DNA from: an uncultured Clostridia bacterium
Lineage (GTDB): Bacteria; Bacillota; Dehalobacteriia; UBA4068
Direction of reading: 5' to 3'
Assembly: GCA_944393575.1 (NCBI GenBank)
Contig: CALYAP010000013.1
Location: 1 to 38,968 of the forward strand
DNA length: 38,968 nucleotides
Both the position numbers and the translations under genes were made by a program. Shown here in pieces: positions 28,231 to 37,060 of this stretch. The number at the start of each line of letters is the position of its first letter. Positions within the stretch are counted from its first letter, which is position 1. A model generated the notes under the pieces. That model was given only the letters and a program-made list of their open reading frames with translations. It ran no database searches and was not told the DNA's origin.

Positions 28231-28581
28231 ATGTTGTTTATCTGTTATCCTAAATGAAGCACCTGCAAAAAAGCCAAGTCTTGGCTAGATGCAGTAGGTA
28301 TAAGCTATACCATGCGCGACATTAAAGAAGAAAATCCATCCGCTGATGAGTTACGTCAATGGTATCAGCAAAGCGGTGAGCCGCTAAAAAAATTCTTCAA
28401 TACCAGTGGTATTCAATACCGGGCCTTGGAACTCAAAGATAAGCTGCCGCAAATGAGTGAAGACGAGCAGATAGAGCTGCTGGCAACAGATGGGATGCTG
28501 GTCAAAAGACCCCTGCTAATCACTGATGATACCGTGTTAATCGGCTTTAAGGAAGCCCAGTGGGCAGAAAAACTAAAATAG
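28231..28581 (+). CDS. ArsC/Spx-like selenoprotein (UGA-Sec at residue 9)
   Basis: A 116-residue thioredoxin-fold protein of the ArsC/Spx/YffB family if TGA at 28255-28257 is read as selenocysteine. The family motif PxCSTCKKA appears here as PK-U-STCKKA, so Sec replaces the first Cys of the redox CxxC motif. The frame is open on both sides, AAGGAGGAG precedes the ATG at 28231, and the downstream part (KEENPSADELRQWYQQSG, KRPLLITDD, GFKEAQW) is normal for the family. A two-part hairpin follows the TGA. A conventional gene caller would start at 28312 and lose the active site. Likely role: thiol/selenol redox reaction or arsenate-type reductase. The family's Arg-rich arsenate site is not certain, so Spx-like function is possible. 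It lies next to yedF. Confidence 0.85.
28263..28294 (+). promoter_or_regulatory. Candidate bacterial SECIS element
   Basis: A hairpin beginning six bases after TGA: lower stem CTGCA / TGCAG, a small internal loop, then upper stem AGCCAA / TTGGCT with apical loop GTC. The loop G is 21 bases after the TGA. Position and a G in the apical loop match the known features of bacterial SECIS hairpins read by SelB. Confidence 0.75.
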
Positions 28582-29859: not shown

Positions 29860-30864
29860 CTACTGCTCTTTCAGCGTCTCAACTGCCTCATAAAAAGCGA
29901 TCATATTCTCAACACTGGTCGGTGGAGGCACATCACAGCCAGCGGAAATAATCGTCCGGTTATTGGTATCCTCATAAATCTTTCTCACTTTGGGGAAAAG
30001 ATCCTCAGCTTTACCAAGATAGAGATCCTCAGCAGGGCTGATATTGCCGCATAGATACTGATTAGGAGCAAGCTTAGAGGCTGCCAATGCCATATCAACT
30101 TCTTTATCCACATCTAGAACCGTAGTACCTGTCCCCAAAGAATAGGGCAATAAGCGGTTGGTATCACCGCAGATATGTAACCTTGAAGCGCCGCCATAGG
30201 ACTGAATCAGCTTAACCATCTCAGTATGGAGTGGCATAATGAACTCCTCATACATAGCCGGAGAGATCAAGGAGCAATTAGGCTCGACGATCTGAATGCC
30301 GTTAATTCCCAGTTCCATCTGTTTCTCGGTGAATTTCATACAATTATCAAAGAAAAATTTGATGCCTTCCATAGTCTCATCTTCATCTTCTAGCAGCTCG
30401 CAAAGTGCGTCTTCCATACCACGGGCATTGCAATATTCGGTGAAGGGACCAATGCAGATACCGAAGATGAATTTTTCCTCTTTGCGGGCTTTGAGTACTT
30501 CTTTAAGAGTAACCAAACGGTTGCCCATTCTAGTTCCTGGCTCAAAAGTTGGCTTAGGCAGATTATGTACATCAGAGACATCCTCTAAAATAGGATCTGC
30601 ATGATAGCCGCTATCAGCTAGAATCGGTTTTTGGCCAAAGTCTTCCAGCTGTTCGTGGAAATCAGAATCCGGAAGAATGCAATCAATATGATATTGATCG
30701 CAGCAATGAATATAGGCATTGGCTCTTTTGATCGGATCATAAACAAATTCTTCCTGATTCAAGCCCTCCTGAATACATACCCAATCAATCGCCAACGGCA
30801 TAAAAGGTGGTCGATCCACTTTTTCCCCGGCAAGAAACTTTACTGTTCTTTCATATCCGTTCAT
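29860..30864 (-). CDS. UroD/MtaA-family methyltransferase-like protein
   Basis: A 334-residue TIM-barrel protein of the uroporphyrinogen decarboxylase superfamily, closer to MtaA/MtbA-type methylcobamide methyltransferases than to heme UroD. The zinc ligands expected for that group are all present: His230 and Cys232 in HICGD, and Cys310 in SAGCDVPP. These enzymes move a methyl group between a corrinoid protein and a thiol. The ATG at 30864 follows AAAGGAG; the upstream extension is not supported. It is the last gene of the operon with the corrinoid protein and DUF2284. The acceptor (coenzyme M, tetrahydrofolate or another) cannot be told. Confidence 0.85.
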   Translation of the reverse strand: MNGYERTVKFLAGEKVDRPPFMPLAIDWVCIQEGLNQEEFVYDPIKRANAYIHCCDQYHIDCILPDSDFHEQLEDFGQKPILADSGYHADPILEDVSDVHNLPKPTFEPGTRMGNRLVTLKEVLKARKEEKFIFGICIGPFTEYCNARGMEDALCELLEDEDETMEGIKFFFDNCMKFTEKQMELGINGIQIVEPNCSLISPAMYEEFIMPLHTEMVKLIQSYGGASRLHICGDTNRLLPYSLGTGTTVLDVDKEVDMALAASKLAPNQYLCGNISPAEDLYLGKAEDLFPKVRKIYEDTNNRTIISAGCDVPPPTSVENMIAFYEAVETLKEQ

Positions 30865-30959
30865 AGTGATTCTCCTTTTATTAAAATTTTTAACAAGGAT
30901 ATTAACTTCATGAATTATTAAATTCACAGACTTATCAGCTGCACATCTCGTCCACTATG

Positions 30960-31520
30960 CTAAAGGCTGAACAAAAGCGCCCCAAAATAAGTCACCGTAT
31001 TAGGACCATTGATATATTTCATACCGCTAAGGTTAGCCAGTTCATAAACAGCTACACCATATGCCTCCAAAGAGGACACTGCCTGATCTGGAAACCGACA
31101 TGGCTGCTGATCCCGTTTAGCGCAACGGCGGCAGATAGAACAGCCGCCACTTCCTAAATGCAGCATTTTAGCGAAGGGCAGCTCACTACTATGCTGACGA
31201 ATGTTGTTGACCAGGGCATTATGCCGATCGCCAGCGTCCAGCATTCCTTCTATATCGAAAGAATCCTCCAGGGGACGGATCGTCTGATAGACCAGAGCCC
31301 AATCAAAACTCTGCGCCTGAGCCATCAGCTGATCGATCTCGCCGATATCAGGTGGGCACATCCAACACTGTCCATAAAGGCCACAGGAATTCATCTCGCA
31401 GAGTTGGCGGAAATCAGCCGAAAAAGTGATATTCGCCACTTTGACTATACTGGCTTTAGTTGCTCCTAATTGCAGAGCTAAGTCTATTAATCGCTGATTG
31501 ATCTCCTGTTGAGTATCCAT
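30960..31520 (-). CDS. DUF2284 cysteine-rich metal-binding protein
   Basis: A 186-residue protein with cysteine clusters CGLYGQCWMCPP and CSICRRCAKRDQQPCRFP, typical of the DUF2284 family of predicted metal or iron-sulfur binding proteins. It lies between the corrinoid protein and the UroD gene in the same operon. A role in electron transfer or reductive activation of the corrinoid is plausible but inferred. GGAG precedes the ATG. Confidence 0.8.
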   Translation of the reverse strand: MDTQQEINQRLIDLALQLGATKASIVKVANITFSADFRQLCEMNSCGLYGQCWMCPPDIGEIDQLMAQAQSFDWALVYQTIRPLEDSFDIEGMLDAGDRHNALVNNIRQHSSELPFAKMLHLGSGGCSICRRCAKRDQQPCRFPDQAVSSLEAYGVAVYELANLSGMKYINGPNTVTYFGALLFSL

Positions 31521-31624: not shown

Positions 31625-32263
31625 TTAAAGCGATTTACAATATGCTACTGCCGCCTCTGCAGCAGCAGTGGCATCATTAGTATATTTATCTGCGCCAATT
31701 TGCTCACAAAAAGCCTCGGTAACAGGAGCGCCGCCTACCATGATATAAACTTTATCCCTGATGCCGGCTTCTTTAGCCAAATTAACGACATTTTCCATCT
31801 GTCCCATTGTAGTAGTCAACAATGCTGAGCAGGCGATTATGTTACAGCTCTCATTGACCGCTGTTTCCACATATTTTTCCGGAGCAACGTCATTGCCCAG
31901 ATCAATGACCTCTAACCCCTTACCCTCCATCATCATTCTCACCAAGTTTTTACCGATATCATGGAGGTCGCCTTTGATACTACCGATACAAACCTTGCCT
32001 TGGACTTCATTATCCCCAGCCTGGAGCAATGGTTTCAGCAGCTCTGTGCCGACATTCATCGCCCGTGCCGCTACCAAGACCTCCGGGACAAAGATCTCTC
32101 CGGCCTGAAACTGATCGCCAACAGCATTCATGCCAGCCAAGAGTCCTTCATCCAAGATAACCTTAGCATCAATACCTTCATCAATAGCCTGCTGTACCAG
32201 CTCCTTAACTTTCTTTGATTTACCCTTCTGCAGCAATTGAGAAATGTCTTCCAAAATACCCAT
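31625..32263 (-). CDS. Corrinoid (B12-binding) methyltransferase protein
   Basis: A 212-residue two-domain protein. The N-terminal helical cap domain (about 1-85) has the MNAVGDQFQAGEIFVPEVL motif. The C-terminal Rossmann-type domain binds cobalamin through the lower ligand His101 in GDLHDIG and the later VGGAPV. It is of the MtaC/MtbC/MttC type, which carries a methyl group between a substrate-specific methyltransferase and an MtaA-type enzyme. GGAGGTGA precedes the ATG. It is first in the operon. No MtaB, MtbB or MttB gene is seen next to it. Confidence 0.92.
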   Translation of the reverse strand: MGILEDISQLLQKGKSKKVKELVQQAIDEGIDAKVILDEGLLAGMNAVGDQFQAGEIFVPEVLVAARAMNVGTELLKPLLQAGDNEVQGKVCIGSIKGDLHDIGKNLVRMMMEGKGLEVIDLGNDVAPEKYVETAVNESCNIIACSALLTTTMGQMENVVNLAKEAGIRDKVYIMVGGAPVTEAFCEQIGADKYTNDATAAAEAAVAYCKSL

Positions 32264-33195: not shown

Positions 33196-34485
33196 TTATA
33201 AAATATTCGGCGTGTAACGGTATTGCAATGGTGAAACACCAGTTAGTTTTTTAAACACCTTGGTAAAGTAGCTCTGACTCTCAAACCCTACCATCAAAGC
33301 GATATATACCATCTTCAAATCATTATTTCTCAGTAATGACTTGCTTTTCTCGATCCTAACTTCATTGAGAAAACTATTAAAGGTAGTTCCCATCTCTTTT
33401 TTAAAAACACGGCTAAAATACGCCGGAGATAAATAGACCATTTTGGCGACATCATTAAGAGTGATCTTCTCTGCATAATGCTGCCTGATGTATAAAGTAG
33501 CCTGATGGATAGCATTAGCATGCTTAATATCGTTATAGGTAAAAAGATCAATAAAAGAATTGGCAGTGCGAACCAGCCAGGAGCATAAAATTTCCCAAGT
33601 TTGAATATTGGGAAGGGTTAAGAGATAATCATGTGTTAACATCAAACACTTTTCCGGATCTGCACCATTATGCACAGCAGTGCGGGAAATCAGTACCAGC
33701 AGCTCAGCCACCCTGGACTTAGCTACACTGAAAACATGCCCGCTGGCAAAAAAGATATAGCCAAAAAGCTCATTGAGATAGTTCTCTACTGTATCGCGTT
33801 CGCCTTTGGCTACTGCCGCCAAAAGCTTCTCTTCAACGTCAAAAGGATAAGAGGTAGGTCCATCTACCCCCTTTAGCCGGTAAATAGATGAAGATATCTG
33901 AGTTTGGATAGCCAAAGACATTTGGGCATCAAGCATATCATTAGCTGCTCCGATATTATTCATAAAGCTAATCGACATAAAAAGAAGGGTCGATAAATCA
34001 TTCACCTTACGCGGCTGGATATATGGTATATTATCCAGAGCTTTAACTACTTTTTGCCGGCAATCATCAGCTAGTTGATATTTATCAACCAGTTCACAGG
34101 TTTCATAGTCATCGCGGTCAACCATCAAAAAAGGACCAACAGTAATCTCCGCCTCGTTGGTTTCTTCAACTACGATCGGCGAAGAAAAACAGGTCAGTCC
34201 CATCGCACAAAAATAGATATACTTGCCGCCAAACCTTTCCGCCTCACGCATGCCGTTGATATAAGTCTTAAGGCATAAAGATTTAGGTCTACCAGCCAAT
34301 TCACAAATATGGCAGGAAGCGCAGCCATGACCATATTCAGAGACAACACTGCCATCAGCAGAAGAGACAATCGTGCCTAATCCAGTGGCAGAGGCAAAAG
34401 CTTTGGCGCAATCTTGCACTAGTTTGGTATCAAAATTACCCCGTCGGGGCTGTCCATAATCCACTTGATCCGGTTGATATGTCAT
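33196..34485 (-). CDS. PocR-domain AraC family regulator
   Basis: A 429-residue regulator. The N-terminal PocR sensory domain (about 10-150) has a cysteine-rich segment GHGCASCHICELAGRPKSLC and YFCAMGLTCFSSPIV. The C-terminal AraC/XylS double helix-turn-helix (about 325-425) has LNDVAKMVYLSPAYFSRVFKKEMG and ALMVGFESQSYFTKVFKKLTG. PocR domains are known to sense small substrates such as propanediol or short carbon compounds in B12-dependent pathways. It lies between the corrinoid operon and the UroD selenoprotein, so it likely activates one or both. The ribosome site (GGGGG) is unusual but usable. Confidence 0.88.
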   Translation of the reverse strand: MTYQPDQVDYGQPRRGNFDTKLVQDCAKAFASATGLGTIVSSADGSVVSEYGHGCASCHICELAGRPKSLCLKTYINGMREAERFGGKYIYFCAMGLTCFSSPIVVEETNEAEITVGPFLMVDRDDYETCELVDKYQLADDCRQKVVKALDNIPYIQPRKVNDLSTLLFMSISFMNNIGAANDMLDAQMSLAIQTQISSSIYRLKGVDGPTSYPFDVEEKLLAAVAKGERDTVENYLNELFGYIFFASGHVFSVAKSRVAELLVLISRTAVHNGADPEKCLMLTHDYLLTLPNIQTWEILCSWLVRTANSFIDLFTYNDIKHANAIHQATLYIRQHYAEKITLNDVAKMVYLSPAYFSRVFKKEMGTTFNSFLNEVRIEKSKSLLRNNDLKMVYIALMVGFESQSYFTKVFKKLTGVSPLQYRYTPNIL

Positions 34486-34715
34486 CAGAATACCCCCTAC
34501 ATCCGATAATATATCTGCCCTTAATCATATATTACTATATCATAATCACAATAATACTCCAAGTAAAATAAAAAATTCAAAAAAGTACAAATTTTATAAC
34601 AATTTTACAATAAACAATGCTGCCAGTGCTTTATAATAATTACGCAATACCATATTCTTAGCAATTAATTAAGGGAGGATAAAATTAGTAAACTTATATT
34701 TAGGGAGGAGAGGAA

Positions 34716-36074
34716 ATGTCTAAAGAACTGCTTTTCAAGACACTGCGGCATGAAGAAACAGAGCGCGCCCCTTGGGTGCCTTTTGCTGGAGTACATGCCG
34801 GTGCACTGATCGGTGCCGATGCAACCCAGGTTCTTACTGATGAAGAGTTACTCGTCAAAGCCTTAATGGAAGTACATAAGCTCTACAAGCCCGACGGAAT
34901 GCCAATTGTGTTCGATCTGCAGCTAGAGGCAGAAATCCTCGGCTGCGATCTGGTCTGGGCCAAAGATTGTCCGCCTTCTGTCAGCACCCATCCGCTGGAA
35001 GAGACAATGACAGTCCCCTGTGAATGTACTATCCCTACCAAGGAAGAAGGCCGTTTACCTCTGGTCTTATCCGCAATGAGGAGGATGAAAGAAGCGGTCG
35101 GCGATGATACAGCGCTCTATGGCCTTTTCTGTGGCCCATTTACCCTAGCGTCACATCTGCGGGGCAATGATATTTTCATGGATATGTATGACGATGAGGA
35201 CTATGTCCATGACCTGCTAGATTTCTGCACCAAGGTTGGTAAAAGCATGATCGATATGTATGTCGAAGTAGGGATGGATGTTATCGCTGTAGTAGATCCG
35301 CTGGTTTCACAAATATCCGTCAACCATTTTGAAGAATTCTTCGCCGAACCATTTACGCAGCTTTTCGACTATATCCGGGAAAAAGGTGTCTTCTCTTCCT
35401 TCTTTGTCTGTGGTGATGCTACCAGAAACATCGAAGCTATGTGCAAAACAGGTCCGGACTCTATCCATGTTGATGAAAATGTCGATCTCGTAGCCGCCAA
35501 ACAGGTCAGTGACCGCTATAATGTAGTCATGGGCGGCAATATCCCACTGACCTCAGTGATGCTGCATGGCTCTCAGCAGGATAATATGAAGATTGCCGTA
35601 GACTTGATCGATGCTGTAAACTCGAAAAGCAACTTTGTTCTGGCTCCTGGCTGAGACATGCCGTATGAAATCCCCATTGAAAATACAATTGGGGTAGCGC
35701 AGGCTGCGCTGAATACGGATGAAACCAGGGAGATGGTCAAAAACTATATCGCTGGAGCAGATTTTGATCTCGATGCCGTGGAATTGCCAGACTATGAGCA
35801 TTTAACCAAACCACTGGTAGAGGTCTTTACGCTCGACTCAGCTACTTGTGCTGCCTGCACCTATATGATGGGCGCAGCCAATGTAGCCAAAGCCACTTAT
35901 GGTGATAAAATCGATATGGTAGAATACAAATTCACCATTAAAGAAAATATCGCCCGCTGCATGAAAATGGGAGTCAAGAACCTCCCCTCCATCTATATCA
36001 ATGGCCAGCTTAAATTCTCTTCACTGATCCCCAGCAAAGAAGAGTTGGAAAAGGCGATCGAAGAGGTTATGTAA
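34716..36074 (+). CDS. UroD-family selenoprotein fused to a thioredoxin-like domain
   Basis: A 452-residue protein if TGA at 35652-35654 is read as selenocysteine (residue 313). Residues 1 to about 335 are a UroD/MtaA-type barrel. Sec313 lies in LAPG-U-DMPYEIPIEN, exactly where the paralogue at 29860 has Cys310 in SAGCDVPPPTSVEN, the third zinc ligand. The HxC motif is changed: Phe230-Val-Cys232 in FFVCGD. Residues about 365-452 form a thioredoxin-like domain with Cys378 and Cys381 (TCAACTYM) and a probable cis-Pro segment (KNLPSIYING). Without read-through both halves look like separate proteins. GGGAGGAGAGG precedes the ATG. Possibly a selenol-based methyl or alkyl transferase whose Sec is reduced by its own thioredoxin domain; this is inference. 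Confidence 0.85.
35672..35694 (+). promoter_or_regulatory. Candidate bacterial SECIS element
   Basis: A hairpin starting 17 bases after the TGA: CCCCATT(G) pairs with (C)AATTGGGG, one T bulged, with an apical loop of six to eight bases that begins with G if the top G-C pair is open. Distance and size fit bacterial SECIS hairpins, though the loop is less typical than that at 28263. Confidence 0.6.
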
Positions 36075-36151: not shown

Positions 36152-37060
36152 ATGGAAATGTATCTGATAACAGGCTTTTTGGGTTCCGGGAAGACCACTT
36201 TCATCAAAAATATTATTAAGGCACTGTCAAATAAGCGAATTTATCTGATTATCAATGAATTTGGCAAAGAGGGTATTGACGGCTCTCTACTCAAAGAATT
36301 AGGTTCAACGATTGCAGAGATCAACAATGGCTCGATCTTCTGCGTCTGCCGTATCAATCAATTTGAAGAATCACTCGATGCAGCAGTTGATGATAAGCCA
36401 GATATCATTTTGGCAGAAGCCTCTGGACTCTCTGATCCGACCAATATCCGCAAAATTATGGCGCAGGATAAATATGCCTCTATCGATTATCGCGGCGCGA
36501 TGTGTTTGGTGGACGCGCCCCGTTTTGCCAAAGTAGTAGATACAGCTCTGGTGGTTCGCAAACAACTCTCCATCAGCAGTCTGGTACTGATCAACAAAAC
36601 CGACCAGGCCTCTCTGGAACAAATCAAGATTGCCGAGCAGACGATAGCTGAAATCAATCCCCAGGCAGATATCGTCCTTACCAGCTTTGCGCAGATCTCT
36701 CCGGAAATACTTTTAACAATGCGCCAAAAAGAATATGATGCTGAAGCCAGTACCGCACGGGATATCACTCTCCAAAAATATCTGTTGACGATCAGCGAAA
36801 CAATGAAAATCAAGCAACTTGAAGGTTTTCTCAAGATGATCGCCGATGACAGCTACCGCATCAAAGGCTTTGTCCATTTAGAAGAGCAGCTGCTCTTGGT
36901 TGACTGCGTGGGTAGCTTTGTAGATGTTTACCAATATACCGGAGAAGTAGTTGGAGAGCTGAATAAGGTGGTCGTTCTGGCTGGCAAAGGCATGCCCACC
37001 CGCAAAAGCATCAAAAACGCAATGAAATGGTATGACAGCTGTATTCTTAAAATGGAGTAA
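36152..37060 (+). CDS. CobW/COG0523-family metallochaperone GTPase
   Basis: A 302-residue G3E GTPase. Walker A is GFLGSGKTT (about residues 8-16), and NKTD is the guanine specificity motif. The family's metal-binding CxCC motif appears as FCVCR (Cys64, Cys66), lacking the third Cys. A C-terminal CobW domain ends with a lysine-rich tail. COG0523 proteins deliver or insert metals such as cobalt or zinc. Following the UroD selenoprotein by 78 bases, it may load the metal of the corrinoid or UroD enzymes; this is inferred from context. GGGAG precedes the ATG. Confidence 0.85.
   Translation: MEMYLITGFLGSGKTTFIKNIIKALSNKRIYLIINEFGKEGIDGSLLKELGSTIAEINNGSIFCVCRINQFEESLDAAVDDKPDIILAEASGLSDPTNIRKIMAQDKYASIDYRGAMCLVDAPRFAKVVDTALVVRKQLSISSLVLINKTDQASLEQIKIAEQTIAEINPQADIVLTSFAQISPEILLTMRQKEYDAEASTARDITLQKYLLTISETMKIKQLEGFLKMIADDSYRIKGFVHLEEQLLLVDCVGSFVDVYQYTGEVVGELNKVVVLAGKGMPTRKSIKNAMKWYDSCILKME

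Follow-up and report, generated by a model that had tools for sequence, protein, structure and literature searches.

A predicted selenoprotein that joins a UroD/MtaA-like barrel to a thioredoxin-like domain across an in-frame TGA in an uncultured Clostridia bacterium

In a 38,968-nucleotide stretch of DNA from an uncultured Clostridia bacterium (contig CALYAP010000013.1, forward strand; hereafter, the window), two adjacent open reading frames are separated by a TGA codon, which raises the question of whether this codon ends one gene or is read as selenocysteine (Sec) within a longer one, and what the product of such a gene would do. An earlier note on this DNA took the two frames (34716-35651 and 35658-36074) to be one gene split by the TGA at 35652, and its coordinates are exact. 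The predicted selenoprotein gene (34716-36074, + strand) is one frame of 452 codons that starts at ATG 34716, behind a purine-rich ribosome-binding site (AGGGAGGAGAGG; 34702-34713, + strand), stays open beyond the TGA, as had been claimed, and ends at TAA 36072-36074. The in-frame TGA (35652-35654, + strand) is its sole interruption, and the product has 452 residues with U at 313. The URO-D match of Pfam (E 1.4e-54) covers residues 2-324 and crosses the TGA, and a PF01208 score of 185.8 bits, against a gathering cut-off of 23.9 bits, places the protein in the UroD superfamily. The thioredoxin-like C-terminal domain with a CxxC motif that the note had read from the translation is matched by Thioredoxin_3 (E 7.7e-7; residues 375-448; 35838-36059, + strand), is also seen in the structural model, and carries a CAAC redox motif (residues 378-381; 35847-35858, + strand) that is invariant in 51 of 51 aligned proteins.

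A homologue search of 84,980 species genomes returned 55 loci, and the 50 with full-length fusions from other genomes were aligned through the TGA site; a further match (L083, in genome G038), spanning just 330 of the 448 model positions, was left out of this count. All 50 homologues pass through the site rather than ending there, and the alignment, which the note had proposed as a check, supports the Sec reading, with Cys at the TGA column in 49 and TGA in one (locus L009). The UroD-family paralogue of the window, at 29860, likewise has the Cys that the note had placed at this column (Cys310, counted from an internal ATG). L009 belongs to a congeneric species and is 82% identical in DNA over the gene. 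A third apparent TGA member (L074) was rejected, as its DNA is the same as that of L009, and searching 43 genomes at the family, order and class levels yielded no further one, so that the known TGA members are two, both within one genus. Between the window gene and L009, dN/dS is 0.024 before the TGA and 0.012 after it, with synonymous sites that are near-saturated (pS above 0.6). The value of 0.012 indicates that the part beyond the TGA is translated and under strong selection, and it is mainly this conservation past the stop, and not the hairpin described below, that excludes a chance open frame.

The hairpin that had been noticed 17 bases past the TGA is present (35672-35694, + strand), with an 8 bp stem, one bulge and a 6-nt loop, and is of moderate significance for a single sequence. 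Its z-score against shuffles varies from -0.5 to -2.1 depending on the stretch that is folded; 7.6% of synonymous recodings of the window gene and 0.9% of those of L009 fold equally stably, and 0.3-0.4% keep the same stem fully paired, the stem having been chosen after being seen. Both TGA members pair at 8 of 8 stem positions and differ by one two-sided change, from U-A to C-G, while the Cys members pair at 2 to 8 of the 8, mostly at 3 to 7. The paired change gives only modest support to the hairpin, since both of its substitutions are third-position changes towards G/C. The published bSECIS model asks for a 3-9 nt loop, a 4-16 bp stem, a distance of 16-37 nt from the UGA and an MFE of -7.5 or lower (PMC13188914), and the hairpin lies within these limits (6-nt loop, 8 bp, about 25 nt, -8.9 and -12.7 kcal/mol); a further bSECIS rule calls for a G in the first two loop positions, and the loop here, AAAAUA, has one there only if the closing G-C pair opens. 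An Rfam scan of the window gave nothing over threshold, a result that is uninformative on bSECIS elements.

The selenium machinery is complete in the same genome, where the search for selA, selB, selC and selD that the note had suggested found all four: selA (540 bits), selB (373 bits), the selC tRNA-Sec (72 bits, above its gathering threshold) and selD (385 bits), which contains a single in-frame TGA. This selD (L079; G000:C26:30036-30956) encodes a Sec-containing SelD (TSAG-U-AAK) and has a hairpin with a G-rich loop. A second Sec gene lies in the window itself, namely an ArsC/Spx-like gene (28231-28581, + strand; TGA at 28255) in which Sec takes the place of the catalytic Cys (YPKUSTC) and of which the listed open reading frame at 28312 is only the tail; it adjoins a yedF gene, and Sec-containing arsenate reductase-like families are already in the selenoprotein catalogue (PMC13188914). 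A general reassignment of TGA was considered and rejected, as TGA stands at the end of 3 of 32 hand-listed open reading frames of the window and selA, selB and selC are present. With conserved translation on either side of the TGA, Cys-containing homologues and selA to selD in the genome, the locus shows what is expected of a bacterial selenoprotein gene, and it very probably encodes one fused protein with Sec at residue 313, made by readthrough of the UGA.

The same evidence bears on two other accounts of the TGA. If it were a true stop, the locus would encode a 312-aa UroD protein and, from ATG 35658, a separately started thioredoxin-like protein of 138 aa, the products of a recent fission; an ATG does stand 3 bases past the TGA, the whole thioredoxin-like domain is contained in the downstream half, and dN/dS alone reads the same for one protein as for two. 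However, inspection of the sequence reveals no ribosome-binding site ahead of 35658, the stop would delete the end of the barrel together with an invariant ligand column, no homologue is split, the TGA persists in a second species, and the genome has a complete Sec machinery whose selD itself uses Sec, all of which make a fission very improbable. That the TGA is a sequencing or assembly mistake (a misread TGC or TGT, as the note had allowed), or a nonsense mutation that marks a gene in decay, might be suspected given that the record of L009 is a metagenome assembly and the genome of the window a 78-contig draft, yet an error is unlikely when another species, 82% identical in DNA, has the same TGA, and decay sits badly with strong purifying selection after the TGA; we give this account hardly any weight. 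Fission, assembly error and a decaying gene are hence rejected on the strength of L009, dN/dS and the homologues, and the Sec reading is retained.

The fusion itself is not confined to selenoproteins. The thioredoxin domain is present in each of the 50 full-length homologues taken from other genomes, 49 of which have Cys, and thus the fused architecture pointed out by the note is real but widespread in a Cys form, and not specific to the selenoprotein. The records that carry it are labelled Bacillota, Spirochaetota, Fusobacteriota, Actinomycetota, Chloroflexota and Thermodesulfobacteriota. The two Sec members group together (100/100) in a midpoint-rooted tree built from 56 proteins; their clade is nested in a broader group of Cys members (97/91) and adjoins Oscillospiraceae proteins. 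A local change from Cys to Sec is the simplest reading of this tree, though short of proof as the rooting is at the midpoint. One 75% identical fusion (L091; OY725850.1, 143-1492) is found on a record (25.8 kb) that is labelled a Subdoligranulum variabile plasmid, hinting at mobility. Another locus (L078; G007:C84:52169-53512) holds a Cys-type fusion interrupted by one TAG and is a pseudogene or an assembly error; it lies in a genome of the same family, which also has an intact copy.

What the Sec residue might do is suggested by the fold. An AlphaFold2 model built with 33 alignment rows (pLDDT 92, pTM 0.89) has as its best matches among solved structures the methyltransferase of M. mazei (PDB identifiers 4ay8 and 4ay7), with a Z-score of 42 and an rmsd of 1.8 over 325-326 residues, followed by UroD enzymes with a Z-score of about 36 (UroD and MtaA structures together span 35-42). 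Profile alignment to 4ay7 places F230, C232 and C313/U313 on His237, Cys239 and Cys316 of MtaA, respectively, which we take to be its zinc ligands. At the position of the HxC zinc motif of MtaA, the protein therefore has Phe-Val-Cys (residues 230-232; 35403-35411, + strand), in which His is replaced by Phe and Cys232 is kept. Phe230 is present in 51 of 51 aligned proteins, and C232, C/U313 and the CAAC motif are invariant. The note had called the TGA column that of a conserved metal-ligand Cys; the conservation of the column stands, but with the usual His lost, its role as a ligand is inherited from relatives and only putative here. UroD-superfamily S-methyltransferases have a His-Cys-Cys zinc sphere, according to PMC10418091, and the window protein, with Phe-Cys-Sec/Cys, departs from this signature of the UroD-type S-methyltransferases and Mlp proteins. 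It also falls below the cut-off of the MtaA/CmuA subfamily TIGR01463 (157.2 against 235.4 bits).

A further ligand is suggested by comparison with MetE, in which Glu642 binds zinc 22 residues after Cys620 (PMC539065). Glu254 (35475-35477, + strand), which lies 22 residues past Cys232 and is invariant in 33 aligned members, is a candidate metal ligand because of this invariance and identical spacing. In zinc-depleted crystals of MetE, a disulfide forms between the zinc ligands Cys620 and Cys704 (PMC539065), the pair that by analogy would be equivalent to C232/U313.

The neighbouring genes suggest a setting for this site. Downstream lies a CobW/COG0523-type GTPase (36152-37060, + strand), and on the opposite strand are a divergent PocR-domain AraC-type regulator (33196-34485), a corrinoid (B12-binding) protein of the MtgC/MtbC type (31625-32263), a DUF2284 predicted metal-binding protein (30960-31520) and the UroD-family paralogue (29860-30927), which has a full HIC...C motif and is without a thioredoxin domain. 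CobW is encoded nearby at 46 of 54 homologue loci, a corrinoid protein at 25, the regulator at 22, a reductive activase at 21 and DUF2284 at 12; a corrinoid or activase gene falls inside the retrieved flanks at only 27 of the 54. The nearby CobW GTPase, corrinoid protein, reductive activase and DUF2284 point to corrinoid methyl transfer, which we consider probable, and members of COG0523 subfamily 13 are known from the gene neighbourhoods of corrinoid methyltransferases (PMC2770081). In L009, a RACo-domain reductive activase sits between the UroD paralogue and DUF2284 (1384-2964), and the corresponding interval of the window (30927-30960) is without one, so the gene has been lost or moved relative to L009; the genome of the window has activases on contigs C31 and C68, the former also carrying another corrinoid protein and UroD protein. 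Upstream of the fusion, two spirochaete loci (L053 and L055) share a pair of long conserved genes (products of about 1020 and 755 aa) and a second CobW-type GTPase in place of the corrinoid genes, and the fusion is perhaps used differently there.

Taken as a whole, the protein may be read, with somewhat more confidence than doubt, as a Sec-containing, corrinoid-dependent UroD methyltransferase with its own thioredoxin reductant. Sec would be inserted at UGA 35652 by SelB and tRNA-Sec with the help of the downstream hairpin, as sequence and conservation suggest, and C232 and Sec313 would occupy the places of Cys239 and Cys316 of MtaA in the barrel. A bound metal is an even prospect; its ligands would be C232, Sec313 and perhaps Glu254, since the His ligand is Phe, and the CobW GTPase could supply it. 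Methyl transfer by the enzyme would run between the corrinoid protein encoded nearby and a soft substrate, presumably a thiol, a selenol or a metalloid. The CAAC domain could equally well be, or not be, the reductant of C232/Sec313, through a presumed contact between the domains: it would reduce a selenenylsulfide between these residues (a disulfide in Cys members) formed at the empty site or once a turnover is complete, freeing the site for metal and substrate to bind anew. The idea that CAAC keeps the site reduced draws on the disulfide formed by the equivalent ligands of MetE upon zinc loss and on the joint conservation of the chalcogen residues and CAAC. The fullest version, in which Sec is a metal ligand in a His-less corrinoid methyltransferase barrel that is reset by thioredoxin, gated by redox state and active on methylated selenium, sulfur or arsenic substrates, is tentative and on the doubtful side.

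Given the loss of the His ligand, there may be no zinc at all, and the main rival keeps the selenoprotein but removes the metal: C232 and Sec313 would act on the substrate as a redox pair recycled by CAAC, for example on a methylated compound of sulfur, selenium or arsenic, by reductive cleavage or transfer. Such chemistry would suit the replacement of His by Phe in all 51 proteins alongside two invariant chalcogen residues and an invariant CAAC, as well as the ability of the MetE zinc-ligand cysteines to form a disulfide without zinc (PMC539065), and CdmB provides an example of a UroD-fold methyltransferase that works without zinc (PMC13222342). On the other hand, a candidate metallochaperone of the CobW type stands beside the gene at 46 of 54 loci and the invariant Glu254 suits a metal site, and we regard the metal-free account as rather unlikely.

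Among known systems, the corrinoid methyltransferase reading finds its closest counterpart in the MtaA/MtbA methylcobalamin:CoM methyltransferases (4ay7/4ay8; TIGR01463), which share the fold (Z-score of 42 at 24% identity), two chalcogen ligand positions, and a corrinoid protein and reductive activase among the neighbours. Unlike them, the window protein has Phe for the His ligand, Sec/Cys as the third ligand and a fused thioredoxin, scores below the family cut-off, and has no evident coenzyme M pathway. Mlp1-3 of the type 1 mlp clusters (Kountz and Balskus, PMC10418091) are likewise MtaA-like, mostly from anaerobic Firmicutes, accompanied by a corrinoid protein and reductive activase and tied to selenium metabolism, but almost always His-Cys-Cys; the text examined describes neither a thioredoxin fusion nor Sec in an Mlp. 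The paper defines a true type 1 cluster by at least two Mlps, a corrinoid protein and an activase in the same direction within 2 kb, whereas the genes of the window are divergent and lack an activase. MetE, the cobalamin-independent methionine synthase, resembles the protein in its Cys-Glu-Cys metal ligands, matching Cys-Glu spacing, barrel and disulfide-capable ligand cysteines, and differs in having a His ligand and two barrels, in methylating homocysteine from folate, and in having no corrinoid and no thioredoxin domain. The C-terminal domain belongs with the small CxxC thioredoxins of the MJ0307/MTH895 type (1nho, 1fo5, 1ilo; PF13192), except that here it is fused to UroD, with Sec outside the thioredoxin domain. 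The catalogued HgcA, arsenite methyltransferase/DUF2284 and CobW-related selenoproteins (PMC13188914) also have Sec in corrinoid, methyl-transfer or metal-handling proteins, but are other families, none of them UroD.

A PF01208/UroD entry is absent from the 119 prokaryotic selenoprotein families of the 2026 catalogue (PMC13188914), no NCBIfam model (June 2026) scores above its cut-off for the window protein, and a literature search of mainly open-access papers did not find the UroD-thioredoxin-corrinoid fusion. The predicted protein would thus add a UroD-family member to a bacterial selenoproteome that lacked one in that catalogue, from a gene that standard annotation would cut into two. It also points to an uncharacterised family of UroD-thioredoxin fusions whose metal site is altered and which is widespread, with members in gut Firmicutes, Spirochaetes and other groups. 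The natural Sec/Cys pair within this family offers a way to probe the role of selenium at a methyltransferase metal site, and whether fusion to a thioredoxin makes methyl transfer redox-dependent.
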